DNA of 41,117 nucleotides. Origin: Candidatus Didemnitutus sp. GTDB lineage: Bacteria > Verrucomicrobiota > Verrucomicrobiia > Opitutales > Opitutaceae. Positions 23,066-25,216 of the stretch are shown here, piece after piece. The translations under genes and the position numbers were made by a program. Below the pieces are notes generated by a model that worked only from the letters and a program-made list of their open reading frames with translations, made no database searches and was not told where the DNA came from. Numbering within the stretch: the stretch's first letter is position 1; each line of letters begins with the position of its first letter. The stretch covers positions 1-41,117 of the forward strand of contig JAMPXH010000025.1 of NCBI GenBank assembly GCA_023701285.1. Direction: 5' to 3'.

Positions 23066-23992
<927 letters not shown>

Positions 23993-24076: not shown

Positions 24077-25216
24077 TCAGACCTGCGCCTCCCCCGCCTC
24101 GTAACGCGCGATCCACGCGCGGCTCCAAGACGCGAAGTCGCCCGCATCGAGGTGCGCGCGCGCCTGGGCCATGAGGTCGAGGTAGAAATGGATGTTGTGC
24201 AGCGTCAGCAGCGTGCTCGCGAGGATCTCGTTGGCCATCACCAGATGCCGCAGATACGCGCGGGAAAAGTGCCGGCAGGTGTAGTTGTCCAACCCCTCGA
24301 CCAGCGGGCCGGCGTCGGTCCGGTAGCGCTCGTTGCGGAGGTTGATGACCCCGTCGGGCGTGAACGCGGCACCGTTGCGCCCGATCCGCGTCGGGTGCAC
24401 GCAATCGAACATATCCACCCCGAGCGCGATCATCTTCAGGATCTGCGGCGGCGTGCCGAGACCCATCGTGTAGCGCGGCTTGTCCGCCGGCATGAACGGC
24501 GTCGTCGCGCCGACCTGCTTCAACATCTCCGGCTCGGGCTCGCCGACACTGACGCCGCCGACCGCGTAGCCGGGGAAATCCATCGCGGCGAGCGACTCGG
24601 CCGCCTCGCGCCGGAGGTCGTCGAAGGTCGAACCCTGCGCGATGGCGAAGACATGGTGCCCGCCCGCGAGGAAGCCGTTGTCGGTGGCGATCTGTTTGCA
24701 CTCGCGCGCCCAGCGCTCGCTGCGCGCGACGGCCCGGGCGCACTCGTCGCGCGTGCACGGCCACGGCGGACACTCGTCGATCACCATCGCAATGTCGGAG
24801 CCGAGGTTGGCCTGGATCGTCATCACCTCGCGCGGACCGAGGAAGAGCTTCGCCCCGTCGATGTGCGACGAGAACGCGATGCCGTCGTCGCGGATGTCGC
24901 GGAGCTTCGCCAGCGAGAACACCTGGAAGCCGCCGCTGTCGGTGAGGATCGGGCCATCCCAACCCATGAAGCGGTGCAACCCGCCGAGCTCGCGCACGAG
25001 CTCGGAGCCCGGGCGCAGATTCAGATGGTAGGTGTTGCCGAGGATGATCTGCGCCCCCGCCTCCTTCACCTGCGCCGGCGTGAGCGCCTTGACGGTGCCC
25101 TGCGTGCCCACGGGCATGAAGATCGGCGTCTCGATGACGCCGTGCAGCGTGCGCAGGCGGCCGCGGCGCGCGGCCGTGGCGGAGTCGGTTTTGAGCAATT
25201 CGAAATGGGCAGGCAT
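24077..25216 (-). CDS. tgt: tRNA-guanine transglycosylase, zinc site degenerate
   Basis: 379 residues from the ATG at 25216; an ATG at 25240 is possible. The enzyme exchanges guanine 34 of GUN-anticodon tRNAs for a queuosine precursor. Core residues are present: Asp93 in [11 protein letters not shown], Asp147 in MVIDECPP and the nucleophile Asp271 in [11 protein letters not shown]. Two points are unusual. The zinc motif, Cys-x-Cys-x2-Cys in E. coli (302, 304, 307) plus His333, reads Leu309, Asn311, Cys314 and His340 here. The substrate loop is GGVSVGE rather than GGLAVGE. Both could reflect altered base preference, such as queuine salvage, as reported for Chlamydia. Trp/Tyr/Arg-rich regions are otherwise intact, so it is not an obvious pseudogene. 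Confidence 0.94.

Follow-up and report, generated by a model that had tools for sequence, protein, structure and literature searches.

The tRNA-guanosine(34) preQ1 transglycosylase (Tgt) of this Candidatus Didemnitutus genome is very probably an active and ordinary preQ1-inserting enzyme that has lost its structural zinc site, the pattern of kept and replaced residues suggesting that the former zinc knuckle is now a metal-free turn. The gene lies on the minus strand of the window, the whole 41,117-nt stretch of DNA analysed, starting with an ATG at 25216 and ending with a stop codon at 24079-24077. The positions referred to throughout are as follows, the residues having been placed by alignment:

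24077..25216, minus strand: tgt, tRNA-guanosine(34) preQ1 transglycosylase, 379 aa, stop codon within the span (TIGR00430, dN/dS)
24938..24940, minus strand: Asp93, general acid/base (E. coli Asp89, Z. mobilis Asp102)
24770..24772, minus strand: Cys149 (Z. mobilis Cys158), second preQ1/queuine determinant
24539..24559, minus strand: base-recognition loop GGVSVGE, residues 220-226, with gate Val224 (Z. mobilis Val233)
24404..24406, minus strand: Asp271, catalytic nucleophile (E. coli Asp264, Z. mobilis Asp280)
24263..24304, minus strand: former zinc knuckle, residues 305-318, with Leu309 at 24290-24292, Asn311 at 24284-24286 and Cys314 at 24275-24277
24197..24199, minus strand: His340 (E. coli His333), retained in 229 of 231 aligned rows
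23066..23992, minus strand: NAD-dependent epimerase/dehydratase gene (PF01370), downstream neighbour of tgt

The window Tgt scored 467.6 bits against TIGR00430 (cut-off 306.75) over residues 5-374 and is a member of that family, while its 119 bits against the archaeosine TgtA family TIGR00432 fall below the cut-off of 350. An AlphaFold2 model built from 41 aligned sequences gave a mean pLDDT of 93.4, with 96-97 over residues 301-320. The 50 structural matches listed were all Tgt structures, the named ones mostly from Z. mobilis, with Z scores of 55-56 and an rmsd of 1.2-1.5 over 363-375 residues. AlphaFold would be expected to produce a very similar fold with or without zinc; the model shows the usual fold and says nothing on zinc binding. 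Identity to the Z. mobilis chains was 47-48%, and the enzyme resembles the E. coli and Z. mobilis Tgts in its fold, its catalytic Asp pair, its Cys/Val base gate, its TIGR00430 membership and the presence of queA and queF in the genome, but differs from both in having two of the four zinc ligands replaced and in reading GGVSVGE for GGLAVGE. The neighbouring epimerase/dehydratase, matched in 22 of 29 related loci searched, is not a known component of the Q pathway.

Leu309, Asn311, Cys314 and His340 align with Cys302, Cys304, Cys307 and His333 of E. coli Tgt, the four zinc-binding residues of that enzyme. Site-directed mutagenesis to identify the Tgt zinc ligands was reportedly the subject of a study by Chong in 1995, going by its title as cited in PMC9508795. 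The window Tgt therefore reads LxNxxC plus His in place of CxCxxC plus His. The sequence-only reading had named these two substitutions, the retained Cys314 and His340 and the loop GGVSVGE, and its residues and numbering agree with the E. coli alignment. A sequencing error was rejected as the source of the substitutions, as the Tgts of all three same-genus genomes read likewise have neither cysteine (L141, L145 and L150, the last with Gln for Leu), and of 105 rows of standalone Val-gate Tgts from the order Opitutales or close named kin, none has a full CxCxxC. These 105 rows, taken irrespective of their zinc motif, comprise 73 from genomes of the order (four of them of a GGVVVDF type described below) and 32 named rows with at least 66% identity to the window Tgt. 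Among 100 distinct order-type sequences, Asn311 is present in 85, Cys314 in 56 and His340 in all 100, and we can offer no zinc-based explanation for the retention of His340 despite the lost cysteines. Separately, two Akkermansiaceae-like Tgts (L229 and L232) have Gln at the position of His340 as well, so that all four zinc ligands are absent.

A metal could still be weakly held by Cys314 and His340, together with water, nearby Asp or Glu side chains or residues of the partner subunit. In its favour are the frequencies of His340 and Cys314 given above. Glu307 and Asp310 could in principle also bind a metal, and their frequency beside the turn (72 and 61 of the 100 distinct order-type sequences) is why this possibility was weighed slightly higher, and the preferred reading slightly lower. 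It is nevertheless unlikely, because Cys314 is missing from 44 of the same 100 sequences, Asn311, the usual replacement, is not a usual zinc ligand, and among the residues gained in columns 302-322 no new Cys, His, Asp or Glu is conserved in all rows. With two of four ligands gone, the third varying freely in relatives and no fully conserved replacement nearby, the earlier suggestion of a zinc-poor Tgt gains support, and a metal-free turn would account for the site.

TGT is stated to require zinc for activity in the available text of PMC9508795, so an active zinc-free Tgt would need some compensation. The only pointer to it among the sequences compared comes from ten columns in which Opitutales-type rows depart consistently from zinc-complete ones, including residues 265, 335, 364 and 368. 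In that comparison the 100 Opitutales-type rows had been selected for the absent motif, so that its own zero count of full motifs carries no information, and one Opitutales Tgt (L196) was grouped as 'Akk-type'. Because E. coli TGT is said to need this site (PMC9508795), losing residues from it could also be taken as the mark of a decayed or inactive enzyme. This is most improbable and was rejected, as comparison of tgt with 15 loci, including two pairs that are apparently one sequence each, gave dN/dS values of 0.08-0.15, indicating purifying selection, and the same cysteine loss recurs across relatives. Asp93, Asp271 and the base-pocket residues are intact and, like Val224 and Glu226, invariant across 41 aligned rows, and the gene is the only Tgt match in its genome, where it occurs alongside queA, queF and queG.

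The cysteine motif was full in 101 and not full in 129 of 230 aligned Tgt rows; these rows are interdependent, weighted towards Opitutales and include near-identical loci of two collections. The 30 rows from the phylum search (L002-L031) are best-scoring matches, all of them zinc-complete, and do not gauge the frequency of zinc loss in the rest of the phylum. By parsimony, a 152-row tree, thinned to an 85% identity threshold and built with the motif columns excluded, needs four zinc-state changes, and a tree of 50 hand-chosen rows needs five; the well supported (starred) branches of the 152-row tree force at least three. On that tree the long branches of fused and queuine-type Tgts meet and L011 and L109 are long, while Bacteroidota are represented by one row (L110) and Chlamydiota Tgts are absent from the sample. 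The window Tgt falls within a set of 50 rows, all 50 zinc-lost, on a starred branch with a support of 100. The zinc-lost groups are the Opitutales, the Verrucomicrobiales/Akkermansiaceae, the queuine-type Tgts of families f6 and f9, and a group in which the rows of family f85 are joined by a single Bacteroidota and a single Ignavibacteriota row.

A single loss common to Opitutales and Verrucomicrobiales was disfavoured, as forcing the two into one clade costs 26 log units (p-AU 0.024, for groups named after the tree had been seen). At the 0.05 level the test did not reject a clade joining the Opitutales with the zinc-lost Bacteroidota, Ignavibacteriota and f85 rows (p-AU 0.060), and the number of losses is therefore given as a parsimony count. 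Change counts carry no direction; the changes were read as losses because the full motif occurs in E. coli, Clostridium, Geoalkalibacter and the other Verrucomicrobiota rows of the tree. Read in this way, the simplest history would place the loss of the zinc site in the ancestor of the Opitutales standalone Tgts.

The sequence-only reading had gone further, proposing an altered base preference and comparing the enzyme with the Tgt of Chlamydia, for which use of queuine from outside is reported. Val222-Ser223-Val224 aligns with L215-A216-V217 of E. coli, and the loop does differ from GGLAVGE at two positions. According to PMC3660597, the preQ1 pocket of Z. mobilis Tgt owes its shape to Cys158 and Val233, a Val233Gly exchange gives the space that queuine needs, and Ala232Ser variants have a kcat approximately 100-fold lower. 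Both pocket residues are kept in the window Tgt, as Cys149 and Val224, and the Ser223 found in place of Ala, a point against the preferred reading, occurs naturally at this position in most aligned rows. The loop GGVSVGE is present in 155 of the 230 rows, 112 of them zinc-lost and 43 zinc-complete, with Kiritimatiellae and Desulfuromonadales loci (L093, L104) among the latter, and so is diagnostic of neither zinc loss nor queuine use. The typical loop of bacterial Tgts that salvage queuine is GG[LS][AS]G, without the gate Val. In GGLAVG that Val is predicted to obstruct queuine, yet the GGLAVG-bearing Tgt of B. henselae accepts queuine at elevated levels (all PMC11570991). By analogy, the Val gate probably does not bar queuine wholly.

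The genes of the source genome (4.0 Mb, 95% complete, 220 contigs) bear on the same question. It encodes queA (373.5 bits), queF of the preQ1-synthase type (TIGR03139, 156.4 bits, cut-off 86.9), queC (TIGR00364, 175.4 bits, cut-off 150.3) and queG (310 bits, cut-off 200). A radical-SAM gene overlaps the end of queC; QueE accounts for all five of its top-scoring families, with every score under the respective cut-off (best 105.2 against 300 bits). Neither queH nor, by PF02592, a yhhQ-type transporter was matched in this genome. A complete preQ1 pathway was named in the sequence-only reading as a finding that would speak against it, and queA, queC, queF and queG together with the QueE-like gene largely bear this out; of the queuine transporters it had also suggested looking for, a search for the yhhQ type found none. 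The combination that would mark a salvage genome, tgt with a yhhQ/QPTR transporter and no queA, is not what this genome shows, since it has queA. A queuine preference for the window Tgt is thus very unlikely, and was rejected on its gate residues and pathway genes, even with likely queuine-type Tgts in the same order and the B. henselae example in its favour; the proposed change of base preference finds no support in a loop that zinc-complete Tgts share.

Base choice and zinc were compared across 92 genomes in which Tgt was read and queA searched, drawn from sets in which queA was tallied overall in 58 of 60 and 22 of 38 genomes, with the standalone Tgt unread in six queA-positive ones. The gate Val was present in all 74 queA-positive genomes and absent in all 18 queA-negative ones, the 38-genome set having been chosen partly for divergent Tgts and one queA-negative genome (G397) being only 64% complete. 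The zinc motif was complete in 5 of the 74 and in 12 of the 18. Because the gate residue tracks queA and the zinc motif does not, these sequences indicate that the zinc site and the choice of base vary separately.

The 18 likely queuine-type Tgts (L200-L217) come from 18 Opitutales genomes, 11 of them 0.8-1.3 Mb in size, and have GGSLG or GGCLG loops, which resemble but do not equal the published GG[LS][AS]G pattern. No queA match was found in any of the 18 genomes. The zinc cysteines are lost in 6 of the 18 rows and the zinc motif is kept in 12. A yhhQ-family gene occurs in 8 of the 18 genomes, adjoining tgt in six (G131, G366, G407, G417, G422 and G393), and was not found in the other 10. 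Taken together, these Tgts look like queuine salvage outside Chlamydia. The Chlamydia comparison of the sequence-only reading therefore suits them better than the window Tgt, which has the gate Val and queA where they have neither and has the Tgt family in common with the Chlamydia trachomatis-type salvaging enzyme.

Two further arrangements were observed. The f85 Tgts (L195, L197, L198 and L199) have the loop GGVVVDF and no zinc motif; this loop is without a Glu equivalent to Glu235 of Z. mobilis, which interacts with the Leu231/Ala232 peptide. In all four, queA adjoins tgt, and queG is nearby on the same contig in three. In four Opitutales genomes (G116, G207, G271 and G134), queA and a yhhQ-family match occur together with no queF match and a weak or no queC match, and preQ1 salvage is possible there.

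A second, longer Tgt of 674-696 residues was found in 15 of 36 genomes and in G102, with the full zinc motif and GGLAVGE in 16 of 16 rows (for example L172:4965-7001 and L173:4655-6703; also L169 and L178-L190). The L172 and L173 Tgts continue into an MnmC2-like methyltransferase domain (PF05430; NF033855 at 73.3 and 71.5 bits, under the cut-off of 136), placing two wobble-position-34 enzymes in one chain. This domain as a query scored above 100 bits in 14 of 288 phylum genomes, in three over part of the domain, and none of the titles listed in a literature search concerned a Tgt/MnmC2-like fusion. The longer Tgt was not found in the source genome.

Loss of the site through life at low zinc would be compatible with an active, metal-free Tgt, but as an explanation it is quite unlikely. 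The longer, zinc-motif Tgt accompanies the zinc-free one in 15 of 15 genomes with both read, and the source genome has no second copy. Its QueC retains a C-x8-CGxC-xx-C stretch, presumably the QueC zinc site. QueC is itself said to need zinc in the text available of PMC9508795. In favour of such sparing, some zinc-binding ribosomal proteins are known to have zinc-free copies (PMC5912738 and PMC13343924).

In the preferred reading, an ordinary preQ1-inserting Tgt with a lost zinc site, the conserved residues suggest that guanine 34 of GUN-anticodon tRNAs would be exchanged for preQ1 through Asp271 and Asp93. Asp271 would attack, guanine would depart, and preQ1 would then enter and attach, before conversion to queuosine by QueA and QueG. 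To judge from the loss of ligands, the zinc knuckle would have become a metal-free turn, typically L-D-N-Y-T, beside the retained His340, and the shape of the C-terminal domain would presumably be held by packing and hydrogen bonds. A broader proposal, tentative and on balance rather doubtful, is that zinc is dispensable to Tgt and was lost approximately four times in the sampled tree by parsimony, with the C-terminal domain, part of the dimer interface, rebuilt; dimer stability or tRNA handling may then differ while the preQ1 chemistry is kept.

The literature presents Tgt as a zinc enzyme whose site is conserved: its zinc residues are called highly conserved in a review (PMC4425180) and the zinc domain a TGT hallmark in a study of QTRT1 (PMC6165067). 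Among the titles listed in literature searches, some of them with zinc terms, none dealt with zinc-free Tgts. Precedent in a tRNA enzyme, of another kind and fold, is given by the bacterial glutamyl-tRNA synthetases, many of which are without a zinc-binding motif (PMC4381286, in part). Neither zinc loss nor GGVSVGE should be taken as a sign of queuine use. If all sampled standalone Tgts of a bacterial order do without the site, zinc would be shown to be structurally convenient for the enzyme but not required.
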